From Clostridium ljungdahlii (GTDB lineage: Bacteria > Bacillota > Clostridia > Clostridiales > Clostridiaceae), in NCBI RefSeq assembly GCF_001636845.1, contig NZ_LITT01000003.1:62001-126000 (forward strand): a stretch of 64,000 nt of DNA, read 5' to 3'. Within the stretch, counting starts at the first letter, position 1. Every line of letters starts with the position of its first letter. Position numbers and translations under genes: made by a program. The notes under the pieces are model-generated. The model saw only the letters and a list, made by a program, of their open reading frames with translations. It did no database searches and was not told the origin of the DNA. This document shows positions 1,309 through 29,488 of the stretch, in pieces.

Positions 1309-1608
1309 ATGGTTAAGGTTACTAAGCGGGCAGTTGAAAAGTTTAATAAAATTAAGCAAAAAGATGAGAGTATGGTAAATGCAATGTTAAGGATTAGCTT
1401 TGGAGGTTATGGCTGAGGTGGCCCAAAATTACAATTAGCTCTGGATGAGTTAAAAAATAATGACGATATACTTGTTAAAGTAGAAGGGATGAGTATTGTT
1501 TATAATTTGGATCTTGAAACATATGTAAATGGATCAGTTATTGATTATTCAAATAATTGGTTTAGCCCAGGATTCACTATAAGTAGTCCAAATTCTTCTT
1601 CATGTTAA
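1309..1608 (+). CDS. HesB-like selenoprotein candidate (in-frame TGA at codon 36)
   Basis: The reading frame starts at the ATG at 1309, after GAAGGTG, and runs 99 codons to the TAA at 1606. It is interrupted only by TGA at 1414-1416. Both sides read as one IscA/HesB-like protein: the N-terminal half opens with a beta-strand and helix pattern (VTKRAVEKFNKIK) and a conserved LRISFGGYG, the TGA takes the position of the family cysteine, and GGPKLQLALDEL follows, then VYNLDLETY and a C-terminal SSSC. HesB-like selenoproteins with Sec in exactly this GYG-U-GGP context are known in anaerobes. The likely role is Fe-S or redox chemistry, not proven. No Sec machinery (selA, selB, selC, selD) is in the window and I could not draw a convincing SECIS stem here. 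The alternative is a gene broken by a nonsense mutation, made less likely by the lack of any other damage. Confidence 0.8.
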
Positions 1609-22549: not shown

Positions 22550-25500
22550 TCAATATTTTATTGATGATAATTTTTTGTAAATATCATATCTTTCACGGGC
22601 ATTGTTTTCAGATTCTTTAAATGCTTTTCCAACTGCACCAGGGAAGATAGTTTTTAATGAAGAATAACGGAGTTCCCCATTAATAAAATCTATATATGAT
22701 TTTGTAGGTTCTTTGGAGTCTAATATAAATGGATTTTTACCTTCCTGTTTTAATAGAGGATTATACCTGTATAGGTGCCAGTAACCGGATTCAACTGCCT
22801 TTTTCTCTTCTGCTATACTAGTACCCATTCCAGTTTTAATACCATGGTTTATACAAGGTGCATAGGCTATGATTAGAGAAGGACCTTTATAAGCTTCAGC
22901 TTCTGTAATTGCTTTAATGGTATGATTCATATTTGCCCCCATGGCTATTTGAGTTACATATACGTATCCATAAGTCATGGCCATCAAACCAAGATCCTTT
23001 TTCCTTATCTTTTTACCGCTGGCAGCGAGCTTCGCAACTGCTCCCGTAGGAGTTGATTTTGATGATTGACCACCAGTGTTTGAGTAGACTTCTGTGTCCA
23101 TAACAAATATATTTACATCATCGCCTAAGGCAAGTACTTGATCTACACCGCCAAATCCAATGTCATAGGCCCATCCATCACCGCCGATTAGCCAATGAGA
23201 TTTTTTGATTAAATAATCTTTTTTCATAAATATTTCATTTAAAATATTATTATTTTTTAAACTTCCATTGTTCAGGATTTTTAGTATTTTTGCAGAAGCT
23301 CTTTTTGAAGTGTCTGCATCATTGAATCCGCTGAGCCATTCTTTAAAGGCTTCTTTCAGTTCAGAACTAATGTCCATTGTCATGGCTGTTTCCATCAAAT
23401 CAGCTAATCGTTCTCTCATTTGTTTTACACCAAGGAACATTCCATATCCATATTCTGCGTTATCTTCAAATAATGAATTACCCCAGGAAGGCCCTTTGCC
23501 AAAATTGTTTGTAGTGTAGGCTATTGCAGGTGCACTTGCTCCCCAGATTGATGAGCAGCCTGTTGCATTTGCTATCATCATTCTATCTCCATAAAGTTGA
23601 GTTAAGAGTTTAATATAAGGAGTTTCCCCACAGCCAGGACAAGCACCGTTAAATTCCAGGAGTGGTTTTGCAAATTGACTTCCTTTTACTGTATGCAAAT
23701 CCATTAATCCTTCTTTAGGAGTAATTTTTAGTGCATATTCAAAGTTATCAGACTGTTCTTCTATTTCTTCTTGTGCAGGTTTCATTATCAAAGCTTTTCC
23801 TGGAGCAGGACATATATCTGCACAATTTCCACATCCGGTACAATCAAGTGGACTTATTTGAATACGATAATGTAAGTTTTCAAGGTCTTTACCAACAGTT
23901 TTTTTAGTTAGAAAACTTTTAGGAGCATTTTCTTTTTCTTTATCATCTAGTAAGCAGGCCCTTATAACACTGTGAGGGCAAATATAGGAGCATTGATTGC
24001 ACTGAATACATTTATCAATTTGCCATTCAGGTACGAAAACTGCAATTCCACGCTTTTCGTAGGCCGTTACGCCAAGTGGGTAAGAACCATCTTCCATTCC
24101 ATTAAAAGCACTGACTGGAAGTTCATCTCCTTCGTGCCTTGCCATAGGTTTCTCAATTCTATTTATAAAATCAGGAAATTCTTTTTTTGGCATATCTGGA
24201 TCTTTAGCATTTTTCCAGGATTCTGGTACAGTAACTTTATGGGCAGCATTTGCTCCTGCATCTATTGCTGCTTTGTTTGCATTAACTATATTTTCGCCTT
24301 TTTTACCATAGGCGTATTCTACAGAGTCTTTTAAGTACTGGATTGCTTGATCGACAGGAATTATATTAGCTAATTTAAAGAATACAGCCTGCATTACCAT
24401 ATTTATTCTAGAACCTAATCCAACTTTTTGTGCTATTGAAATTGCGTCTACTATATAAAATTGTATGTTATTTTCAGCAATATATCGTCTCATTGAAGCC
24501 GGTAGATGTTCATCTAATTCGTTTTTGCTCCAAGGGCAGTTTAAAACGAATGTGCCATTTTTCTTCAATCCTTTTAATACATTTATATTGTAAATAAAGG
24601 ATTTGTTGTGACAAGCAGTATAATTTGATTCATAAACTAGATAAGGTGATTTTATTGGTTTATTGCCAAATCTCAAATGAGAAACTGTACTTCCACCTGA
24701 TTTTTTACTGTCGTAGGAGAAATAAGCCTGACAATATAAATTTGTTTTATCGCCTATGATCTTAACTGCTGTTTTATTTGCACCTACAGTACCATCTGAT
24801 CCCAAACCATAGAATTTGCATCTTATAGTTCCTTCTGGTGTTGTATCTATTATTTCTTCCTCAGCCAGAGATGTATTTGTAACATCATCAACTATTCCAA
24901 TTGTAAATCTATTTTTTGAATTAGGATTTTTAAGATTTTTAAATACAGCTAAAATTTGAGAAGGTGTTGTATCTTTTGAACCCAATCCATATCTTCCACC
25001 AACAATTACAGGTTTATCTGCATTATTATAGAATAAATTTACTACATCTAAATAAAGAGGTTCTCCTGTAGAACCAGGTTCTTTTGTTCTATCTAAAACA
25101 GCAATTTTTTTAACTGTTTTAGGCAAATATTTAAAGAAGTAAGAAGAAGAAAATGGTCTGTATAAGTGTACTTTTATGAGTCCTACTTTTTCATTATTTT
25201 GTCTTAAATAATCTACGGTTTCTTCTATAGTATCACAAACTGATCCCATAGCAACAATTATATATTCCGCATTTGGATCTCCATAGTAATCAAATGGATG
25301 ATATACCCTTCCAGTAAGTTTTTCTATTTCTCTCATATAGCCTTCAACAATATCTGGGACAGCATCAAAGAACTTATTTGAAGATTCTCTTTGCTGAAAA
25401 TAAATATCGGGATTTTGAGCAGTCCCTCTAACTGAAGGATGTTCTGGATTTAAGGATTTGTCTCTAAATCTTTGGATTGCATTATAATCAACTAATTTTG

Positions 25501-26074
25501 CCACATCATCATGGTCAATTACTTCAATTTTTTGATATTCATGAGATGTTCTGAAACCATCGAAAAAATGTAAAAAAGGAATGCTTGCTTTAATTGCAGA
25601 AAGGTGGGCAATATTTGCTAAATCCATAACTTCTTGAACATTTGATGATGCTAAAAGCGCAAATCCAGTTTGCCTTGTTGCCATAACATCCTGATGATCA
25701 CCAAAAATTGACAGTGCATGAGCTGCAATTGCACGGGCAGTTACATGAAATACTCCAGGCAGCAGTTCACCTGCAATCTTATACATATTAGGTATCATGA
25801 GAAGTAATCCTTGTGAAGCAGTGTATGTAGTTGTCAGTGCACCAGCAGCCAATGATCCGTGAACAGCTCCAGCAGCACCAGCTTCGGATTGCATTTCAAC
25901 AAGTTTAACTGGCTGACCGAATATATTTTTTTTACCATGGGAGGATAGATCATCTACAAGTTCAGCCATCGGAGTAGATGGTGTTATGGGATAAACAGCT
26001 GCAACATCTGTAAAAGCATAGGAAGCTTCAGCAGCAGCTTGATTCCCATCCATGGTCTTTAATTTCTTTGTCAT
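22550..26074 (-). CDS. nifJ: Pyruvate:ferredoxin (flavodoxin) oxidoreductase, single-chain
   Basis: A 1174-residue enzyme, the standard length. It oxidises pyruvate and CoA to acetyl-CoA and CO2 with reduced ferredoxin, or runs in reverse. Domains in order: pyruvate-binding domain I (YPITPSTPMAELVDD near 29), domain II/III, CoA-binding region, two 4Fe-4S sites (CIQCNQCSYICP near 690 and CTGCGNCADICP near 750), then the TPP domain with its own cluster cysteines (CPGCGETPYIKLL near 815, NATGCSSIWG near 840) and GGDGWAYDIGFGG near 965. AGAGGAGG precedes the ATG. Central to fermentative and acetogenic carbon flow. It has no partner genes here. Confidence 0.97.
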   Translation of the reverse strand: MTKKLKTMDGNQAAAEASYAFTDVAAVYPITPSTPMAELVDDLSSHGKKNIFGQPVKLVEMQSEAGAAGAVHGSLAAGALTTTYTASQGLLLMIPNMYKIAGELLPGVFHVTARAIAAHALSIFGDHQDVMATRQTGFALLASSNVQEVMDLANIAHLSAIKASIPFLHFFDGFRTSHEYQKIEVIDHDDVAKLVDYNAIQRFRDKSLNPEHPSVRGTAQNPDIYFQQRESSNKFFDAVPDIVEGYMREIEKLTGRVYHPFDYYGDPNAEYIIVAMGSVCDTIEETVDYLRQNNEKVGLIKVHLYRPFSSSYFFKYLPKTVKKIAVLDRTKEPGSTGEPLYLDVVNLFYNNADKPVIVGGRYGLGSKDTTPSQILAVFKNLKNPNSKNRFTIGIVDDVTNTSLAEEEIIDTTPEGTIRCKFYGLGSDGTVGANKTAVKIIGDKTNLYCQAYFSYDSKKSGGSTVSHLRFGNKPIKSPYLVYESNYTACHNKSFIYNINVLKGLKKNGTFVLNCPWSKNELDEHLPASMRRYIAENNIQFYIVDAISIAQKVGLGSRINMVMQAVFFKLANIIPVDQAIQYLKDSVEYAYGKKGENIVNANKAAIDAGANAAHKVTVPESWKNAKDPDMPKKEFPDFINRIEKPMARHEGDELPVSAFNGMEDGSYPLGVTAYEKRGIAVFVPEWQIDKCIQCNQCSYICPHSVIRACLLDDKEKENAPKSFLTKKTVGKDLENLHYRIQISPLDCTGCGNCADICPAPGKALIMKPAQEEIEEQSDNFEYALKITPKEGLMDLHTVKGSQFAKPLLEFNGACPGCGETPYIKLLTQLYGDRMMIANATGCSSIWGASAPAIAYTTNNFGKGPSWGNSLFEDNAEYGYGMFLGVKQMRERLADLMETAMTMDISSELKEAFKEWLSGFNDADTSKRASAKILKILNNGSLKNNNILNEIFMKKDYLIKKSHWLIGGDGWAYDIGFGGVDQVLALGDDVNIFVMDTEVYSNTGGQSSKSTPTGAVAKLAASGKKIRKKDLGLMAMTYGYVYVTQIAMGANMNHTIKAITEAEAYKGPSLIIAYAPCINHGIKTGMGTSIAEEKKAVESGYWHLYRYNPLLKQEGKNPFILDSKEPTKSYIDFINGELRYSSLKTIFPGAVGKAFKESENNARERYDIYKKLSSIKY

Positions 26075-26189
26075 ATTATGCTTCCTCCTCTATAAATAAT
26101 TTTTAACATATTTAGTATTTACAAAGTATGCCTATTGAATTCATAAATTTAGGTTAAATCCTTAACTATTAATTCTTAACTCTTAATTT

Positions 26190-26492
26190 TTAATTATACT
26201 TTATCCCATTTGCACTGAAAGCAGGTTTCATGAATGGAATTTTAGGGAGCATGAATATATTAACGTTTTCTTCTAAAATTAAACTACTCAATATATAAAT
26301 TTTAATTCCACAGTATTCATATTCATCATAAATTTCTTCTTTACTAAAATATTTTAAAACCTCAACACTGAGATTTGTGACTTTCGTCATTTCACCTGTT
26401 CAGCAGCTTATGCAGTTAGAGCGAGTCCTAATTAGAAAACAGCCTTGAATTTTTTTAGCATATTTAAGGGCTTTTTCTTGAATAGTTATCAT
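26190..26492 (-). CDS. CC/Se-motif selenoprotein candidate (in-frame TGA at codon 31)
   Basis: On the minus strand an ATG at 26492 with GGAGGCG eight bases before it opens 100 codons ending at 26190, interrupted only by TGA at 26402-26400. The N-terminal part ends SNCISC, then the TGA, then TGEMTKVTN. The sequence fits small (seleno)proteins in which a Cys-Cys pair is replaced by Cys-Sec; I recall an NCBI family named CC/Se motif. The C-terminal YCGIKIYILSSLILEENV resembles the beta-rich end of HesB/IscA-like proteins. A short stem with a GAAA loop follows the TGA at the distance expected of a bacterial SECIS. If translation began only at the inner ATG (26390) a 66-residue protein without the cysteines would result, and that ATG has a weaker site (CAGGTG). 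Function unknown, presumably redox. Confidence 0.72.
26378..26389 (-). promoter_or_regulatory. Candidate bacterial SECIS stem-loop
   Basis: On the minus strand, TGAC-GAAA-GTCA begins ten bases after the TGA codon (26400), with G as first loop base. Known bacterial SECIS elements place an apical loop with a G about 15-20 bases past the UGA, so spacing and loop fit. The stem is only four pairs, extendable with bulges. Confidence 0.45.
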
Positions 26493-26654
26493 ATATTTAT
26501 CGCCTCCATAAATTTTGTCAATAAGTTTTATGTATACATAATTGAAATCTTAAAAAAAGTAACCTATACTATAAAATATACTAGTATTCAATTAAAGGCA
26601 ACTATTTATTGATATTCTTATAAATAGTATATACAAAAGTAATGTGGAGGAAAA

Positions 26655-26813
26655 ATGCAGGGAATAAGATATTATTTCAGTGATTATAATGGAAATGTAG
26701 AAATAAAAAAATGTGAAAACTCAATACATTCATGCAAAGAACATTTTCATGATGAAGTCTCTATTGGATTAGTTGAAAAAGGAAATTGCAGAGGTAAATT
26801 TAAAGTTTTATAA
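26655..26813 (+). pseudogene. N-terminal fragment of an AraC-family regulator
   Basis: Fifty-two codons after GGAGG, ending at TAA. The residues SCKEHFHDEVSIGLVEKGNC are the cupin start typical of AraC-type activators (usually about 270 residues). All of the C-terminal helix-turn-helix is missing and the next gene follows. Probably a deletion remnant; it could still be translated. Confidence 0.65.
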
Positions 26814-28687: not shown

Positions 28688-29488
28688 ATGGAATTTTTAA
28701 TACAAATGTTAATTAGGGCCTGTATAGAAACAGTGTATTTGACAGGTATAATAATACTAGTTGGAATGTTACTTGGAATTATGAGAAACTACACTATAAA
28801 AAATTTTGCTAGAAGCTTTGGCATGAAATCCATAATGATAACGGGTTTTATAGGAGTTCCGGTACATGAAATGAGCCATGCAATATTTGCAGCTATTTTT
28901 GGACATAAAATAACTGCTGTAAAGCTTCTGCAAAGACCTGATGAAAATGGGGTAATGGGATATGTAGAGCATAGTTATAATCAAAATAGTATCTACCAGC
29001 AGATAGGAAACTTTTTTATTGGAACTGCACCTATATTTGGAGGTATCTTATCTGTAGTTGGGCTAATGCATTTTATGATACCTAGAGCTTATGATGAATT
29101 TATAAGTATTTTAAAGGTAAATTCGCATGTAACTGTTATAAACAAAGCTGCAGCTGTACATATATTCAGTATGTATAAAGTCCTAGTAAAAACTATATTT
29201 TCTACTGCCAATTTTCATAATATATATTTTTATATATTTTTATTTATAGCAATCTGCATATGTTCCCATATATCATTGAGCTATGCGGATATTAGAGGAG
29301 CTACAGGAGGATTAATTACTATATTTTTAGTATTGTTAATTCTTAATGTTGTTGGATGGACAAAATATTTATCCATTGAAAATATAACTAAATATAATGT
29401 TCTCATAACGGCTTTTTTGATTTTGGCTGTACTGCTTTCTGCAATAACATTTTTAATAAGTTTAGTTTTAACTATAATAAAGCATTGA
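28688..29488 (+). CDS. Integral membrane protein with HExxH (M50-like metalloprotease motif)
   Basis: A 266-residue protein with about six hydrophobic segments. In the second, VPVHEMSHAIFAAIFGHK carries HExxH at residues 60-64, the zinc motif of intramembrane M50 (S2P-like) proteases. The second metal-ligand motif (NxxPxxxxDG) is not evident; the region IGTAPIFGGILSVVG is the closest and lacks the Asp. It may be a divergent peptidase or a structural relative. AAAGGAG precedes the ATG. Repeat copy C follows. Function unassigned. Confidence 0.7.
   Translation: MEFLIQMLIRACIETVYLTGIIILVGMLLGIMRNYTIKNFARSFGMKSIMITGFIGVPVHEMSHAIFAAIFGHKITAVKLLQRPDENGVMGYVEHSYNQNSIYQQIGNFFIGTAPIFGGILSVVGLMHFMIPRAYDEFISILKVNSHVTVINKAAAVHIFSMYKVLVKTIFSTANFHNIYFYIFLFIAICICSHISLSYADIRGATGGLITIFLVLLILNVVGWTKYLSIENITKYNVLITAFLILAVLLSAITFLISLVLTIIKH

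Follow-up and report, generated by a model that had tools for sequence, protein, structure and literature searches.

Selenoproteins of the CC/Se motif family are described by the NCBIfam model NF041239 (Moor_selen_rel, 'CC/Se motif family (seleno)protein'), and the family is listed with the motif CxxU in Table 1 of a 2026 review (PMC13188914). No assigned function for the family was found in the portion of that review available to us; among the matches listed in our literature search, it is the only paper that names NF041239 or the 'Se motif family'. The same portion gives a model of the bacterial SECIS element, in which the loop lies 16-37 nt after the TGA, a G occupies one of the first two loop positions and the folding energy is −7.5 kcal/mol or lower (PMC13188914). 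The other described proteins of relevance are the HesB-like selenoprotein (TIGR01911) and the IscA-HesB group. The literature search found no paper joining a selenoprotein, pyruvate:ferredoxin oxidoreductase (PFOR) and HesB.

The window, a stretch of 64,000 nucleotides, is part of the 4.36 Mb genome of Clostridium ljungdahlii. The initial annotation described a minus-strand frame of 100 codons running through a TGA after CISC, with GGAGGCG before its ATG. Translation bears this out: with the TGA taken as a residue, the frame from 26492 to 26190 contains that single TGA, located after CISC. The features of the locus are as follows.

26190..26492, minus strand: predicted selenoprotein gene of the CC/Se motif family in its Cys-Sec (CU) form, 100 codons plus TAA
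26400..26402, minus strand: in-frame TGA, codon 31, predicted Sec; aligns with Cys in 28 of 34 distinct relatives without TGA
26503..26507, minus strand: Shine-Dalgarno sequence GGAGG, 10 bases 5' of the ATG
26357..26376, minus strand: probable SECIS hairpin AAATCTC[AGTGTT]GAGGTTT, with its loop 30 nt 3' of the TGA and G as the second loop base
26378..26389, minus strand: hairpin TGAC[GAAA]GTCA proposed earlier; present, too near the TGA and less conserved
22550..26074, minus strand: PFOR, 1174 aa; the gene that follows on this strand, 115 bases downstream

The product of the gene would be a 100-residue selenoprotein with a Cys30-Sec31 dyad. Its nearest named relative, in a search that may leave out the record of the window protein itself, is found in Clostridium ragsdalei (96% identity). 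Genome annotation would probably cut off or overlook the gene. The protein resembles NF041239 in its similar length, in an alignment across residues 1-81 and in the Cys/Sec dyad. It differs in carrying the predicted Sec at the second dyad position (C-U, within C-x-x-C-U) and in scoring 20.7 bits (E 0.00032), under the curated cut-off of 40. Among the 37 aligned members of its family, 26 match the model at E ≤ 0.01, the best relative with E 3.2e-14, and the family shows a Cys-Cys dyad in which Sec takes the place of one Cys, a family criterion that we take from the name of the model. Judged by sequence, the window protein is a divergent relative of NF041239; the family is already named, though little studied, and the C-x-x-C-U form of the window protein is a Cys-Sec variant whose score leaves it under the cut-off of the present model. 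The locus would add to the family a strongly supported selenoprotein that falls below the cut-off of the current NCBI model.

A HesB/IscA-like look was also noted at the outset. This likeness stands as a distant one for the family: hhalign aligns it with eight HesB/IscA-like proteins at a probability of 92.6% across 88 columns, and Pfam PF01521 is matched by 4 of the 37 members at E ≤ 0.1 (best 2.7e-5). It does not extend to the window protein itself, for which profile searches gave no significant match to PF01521 or TIGR01911. In the profile-profile alignment, the Sec of the HesB-like selenoprotein falls on Cys30 of the window protein, the first dyad position. IscA carries C-terminal cysteines, whereas the window protein has no cysteine past residue 61. 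Judged by these profiles, the window protein most likely represents a distant HesB/IscA-like domain, on which the dyad would form a redox site or a site for handling soft metals or Fe-S clusters. A search of the family profile against solved structures returned one match, at E 0.48, and nothing useful. Weak matches of the window protein or of family members to unrelated families, such as UxuA, comF and a subtilase-type AB5 binding-subunit family, were rejected as chance; where a curated cut-off was given, they fall short of it.

Of 98 related genomes, 29 have a homologue (E ≤ 0.01), and a 37-row profile finds matches in 66 of the 225 genomes of the order (E ≤ 1e-4), the own genome being included in both counts. 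From this spread of homologues, the window frame is evidently not a product of chance. The fetched loci yielded 84 distinct family matches: 33 have the TGA at the first dyad position, as in most TGA-bearing relatives examined, 16 at the second (the window gene included), one has it near the C-terminus and 34 have none. Comparison of Cys-Cys with Cys-TGA homologues, suggested as a check in the initial annotation, favors Sec. At the column of the window Sec, the 34 TGA-less matches have Cys in 28 cases, F in three, G in two and L in one, the second Cys being placed at this column for Cys-x-Cys dyads. G201 (one TGA, three TAA) is classed as lacking a Sec-site TGA, and L037, which also has a TAA, is excluded from every count; alignment A2 leaves out L010, L020, L032 and L037, and the sel operon loci and tRNA matches were not given to the scan for family members. 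By identical stretches, assembly G005 is that of C. ragsdalei, G187 that of C. thailandense and G184 that of C. magnum, so they do not add cases to these named species.

In the family tree (82 rows, 98 columns, with the short rows L032 and L116 left out), no more than 38 of the 79 inner branches have good support. The window protein belongs to a clade of eight with support 100/99, and all eight have the TGA at the second dyad position. Three labels for the position or form of Sec change 13 times on the tree, the minimum possible being 2. Since Sec occurs at either dyad position and the form changes repeatedly on one tree, the family may serve as a compact test of Sec gain, move and loss. A profile of four CU rows, run against 391 genomes from the class, matched five at E ≤ 1e-8, the own genome included. 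One of these five, G382, has one TGA and one TAA.

A TGA within a small gene might also mark a pseudogene, that is, a former Cys-Cys gene truncated by a nonsense mutation, and a sister lineage, G019, seems to keep only a C-terminal remnant upstream of PFOR (23 residues, E 0.007). The clade of eight argues against such decay, for the identical TGA is present in all eight rows and the aligned frames contain no stop besides it. Between the window gene and that of C. ragsdalei, the 30 codons 5' of the TGA differ by four synonymous changes and one non-synonymous change, and the part 3' of it by four and two. Against C. thailandense, dN is 0.17 and dS 0.87 before the TGA, and 0.24 and 0.91 after it. 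If the TGA truly ended translation, one would not expect such conservation of the part behind it. This low downstream dN/dS speaks strongly against a pseudogene, the hairpin behind the TGA is conserved as well, and we regard a truncated gene as highly improbable.

The same constraint bears on the start site. An ATG at codon 35 (26390) follows the TGA, and translation from there would relegate the TGA to a leader. According to the initial annotation, homologues starting uniformly at this inner ATG would speak against its reading. Instead, the TGA-less relatives read unbroken from the outer start past it, the 30 codons preceding the TGA show conservation at the protein level and a good Shine-Dalgarno sequence precedes the outer ATG, which leaves hardly any probability for an inner start.

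The absence of selB had likewise been named as an outcome that would count against Sec; selB is present twice. The own genome holds two sel loci, selD-selA-selB-tRNA-Sec on contig C47 and selA-selB-tRNA-Sec on contig C6, with scores of 642.8 and 623.9 bits for selA (cut-off 267.9), 373 and 365.7 bits for selB (cut-off 242.25) and 379.9 bits for selD (cut-off 125). The selD gene (L049, 3030-4067, plus strand) has an in-frame TGA within TSGUAAK, and a U-x-x-K motif is listed for selenophosphate synthetase in the available part of PMC13188914. It is likely itself a selenoprotein gene, and its in-frame TGA means that the own genome very probably decodes Sec. The SelB of contig C6 (L048, G000:C6:90000-100000) is 88% identical to the SelB of C. 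thailandense and 67% identical to that of contig C47. The C47 type (L049, G000:C47:74000-84000) occurs at about 95% identity in G003 and C. ragsdalei; G003 holds both types, and the search of G005 found the C47 type only. The presence of two diverged Sec loci in one genome suggests that the second selA-selB-tRNA-Sec set was imported.

Across genomes, selB exceeds the cut-off in 51 of the 80 searched. Of the 44 genomes with a Sec-site TGA, 43 carry it, versus 7 of 22 that have a family member but no such TGA, a contrast with a Fisher p of about 9e-9 when genomes are treated as unrelated. Among memberless genomes, 159 in all, it was found in one of the 14 searched, of which 11 belong to one genus. 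The sole exception among the TGA-bearing genomes, G076, has no selB over the cut-off, and its genome is 74% complete.

Termination generally competes with Sec insertion, and this lends some weight to the idea that the TGA is decoded as another residue by near-cognate suppression, or that a truncated product of 30 residues predominates and acts as a selenium-dependent switch. The co-occurrence with selB and the Cys found in relatives at this position point the other way, and we give such decoding or truncation very little credence. Homology, the position of the TGA, the constraint on both sides of it and the presence of the machinery can be read directly from the genomes, and from them we infer that the TGA of the window gene is very likely decoded as Sec. 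The Cys column of the homologues, the clade and the machinery give good support to the earlier proposal of a CC/Se-type gene with Sec at its TGA. At the UGA of codon 31, SelB would bring Sec-tRNA-Sec to the ribosome, guided by a hairpin with its loop 30 nt downstream.

Two hairpins in the window gene could provide this guide. The hairpin TGAC-GAAA-GTCA, put forward in the initial annotation, does lie 10 bases after the TGA, but as a SECIS it is probably wrong: its loop is at 14 nt, under the 16-37 nt given in the accessible part of PMC13188914, and all four of its pairs are kept in only five of the eight rows of the close clade (window included) and broken in the other three. It is unlikely to be the SECIS. 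In AAATCTC[AGTGTT]GAGGTTT (26376-26357), six of seven pairs are kept in all eight rows and the seventh in five; its pair changes, U-G to U-A and A-U to G-U, are one-sided only. Like the bacterial SECIS, it is a stem-loop 3' of the TGA, with G at loop position 2 and the loop 30 nt away, and it agrees with the rules for distance and for G in the loop as that part of PMC13188914 states them. Unlike it, the hairpin taken alone is weaker, with −5.7 kcal/mol against the limit of −7.5 given there (PMC13188914). The 57-nt region with both hairpins folds at −9.8 kcal/mol (z −1.05), and 35 of 200 dinucleotide shuffles are at least as good. Because shuffles match this stability and the lone hairpin is weak, folding energy alone is no proof of a SECIS.

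Many further TGA genes of the family have a comparable hairpin, mostly CTC-loop-GAG, at the same codons. An in-range hairpin with G in the loop, equalled by fewer than 10 of 200 letter shuffles, is present in 38 of 49 TGA genes, and the window hairpin is equalled by 3 of 200. Eleven genes have none, among them that of C. magnum and the paralogue in the own genome, whose loop is AATGTT. Since such a hairpin was the criterion for choosing the 30 loop-centred rows, their pairing does not count as independent evidence. Codon usage in the stem is, by our analysis, the better evidence. At the Leu codon in the 5' arm, 15 of 22 TGA rows have CTC, four CTT, two CTA and one CCA (Pro); none of 18 TGA-less rows has CTC there, and across the window's long ORFs this codon makes up 49 of 1291 for Leu. 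In the 3' arm, all 19 TGA rows with Glu encode it by GAG, versus one of nine TGA-less rows with Glu, the background being 171 of 977 Glu codons in the same ORFs. The rows in both counts are related; L006 and L010 are identical sequences, and L009 is the window gene. The SECIS is probably the hairpin at 26376-26357.

The window gene lies directly upstream of PFOR, and so do its counterparts in C. ragsdalei (G005), in G003 and in G200, which belongs to another genus. Compared with G200, 67 of 99 selenoprotein residues are identical, and the N-terminal 150 residues of PFOR are 95% identical. The window PFOR is 95% identical to the genus of G200 and G019, versus 85-88% to the best copies of ten other members of its own genus. 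Because it is nearer to the other genus, the selenoprotein-PFOR pair may have been transferred, and the linkage to PFOR would then count as one event and not as several. In G019 (L152), a 71-base match to the PFOR leader accompanies the weak 23-residue match to the C-terminus, which suggests that the selenoprotein gene was lost there and a C-terminal remnant left upstream of PFOR. The apparent remnant adjoins a gene that by eye resembles window 28688-29488. Scanned for promoters and terminators, the stretch 26040-26800 shows neither a terminator nor any promoter-like site on the strand of the gene; all four promoter-like sites lie on the opposite strand (mean of shuffles, 5.7).

Sister copies have other neighbors. 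The CU copy of C. thailandense adjoins ferredoxin and DGC-domain proteins and lies near an ArsR-type regulator (Pfam), and the own-genome sister CU copy has the same neighbors (ferredoxin, DGC-domain, ArsR-type; matched by eye). An ArsP-type permease is encoded near the CU copies of C. thailandense and C. magnum, the G186 copy has in its vicinity a gene whose product bears pyridine-nucleotide oxidoreductase and Fe-S domains, and the Cys-x-Cys paralogue L041 sits beside YtkA-like and Fer4_5-domain proteins. These differing neighborhoods lead to two proposals for what the dyad does: it would look after Fe-S enzymes or handle soft metals. If the TGA is decoded as Sec, metal or metalloid handling in place of service to PFOR is a realistic possibility, though somewhat short of probable; it is favored by the C. 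thailandense, C. magnum and L041 neighborhoods and opposed by the place next to PFOR that the window gene shares with its orthologues in C. ragsdalei, G003 and G200. Since the gene precedes PFOR in two genera, our guess is that it might serve or protect ferredoxin or Fe-S enzymes such as PFOR, which is possible but on the unlikely side. The PFOR link provides a first testable functional idea for the family. The fuller proposal is more speculative and rather unlikely as a whole: a PFOR-linked subfamily of small selenoproteins, with Sec at the second dyad position, would serve or protect PFOR or its ferredoxin, in a genome with two diverged Sec-insertion loci, one of them probably imported, perhaps with the sister gene copy.

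Other TGA genes were observed in and beyond the window. The HesB/IscA-like gene at window 1309-1608 (plus strand), the other TGA gene of the initial annotation, also looks real: it matches TIGR00049 with 58.8 bits (cut-off 58.8) and has related TGA genes in the order. By eye, its TTAGCTC[TGGAT]GAGTTAA, with the loop 25 nt after the TGA (1414-1416), is like the SECIS of the family. The own genome has a second Cys-TGA paralogue at G000:C1:82178-82471 (L038, L039), which clusters with rows from C. magnum, C. thailandense and G186 and not with the window gene; it was perhaps imported together with its neighbors. Near it, L039 3844-4155 (plus strand) encodes an aminotransferase class V fragment, which at 103 aa is short for its family. 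In C. magnum (G184:C14:67411-68101; L070, L091), two family genes stand in tandem, one with the TGA at the first dyad position and the other with Cys-Cys.
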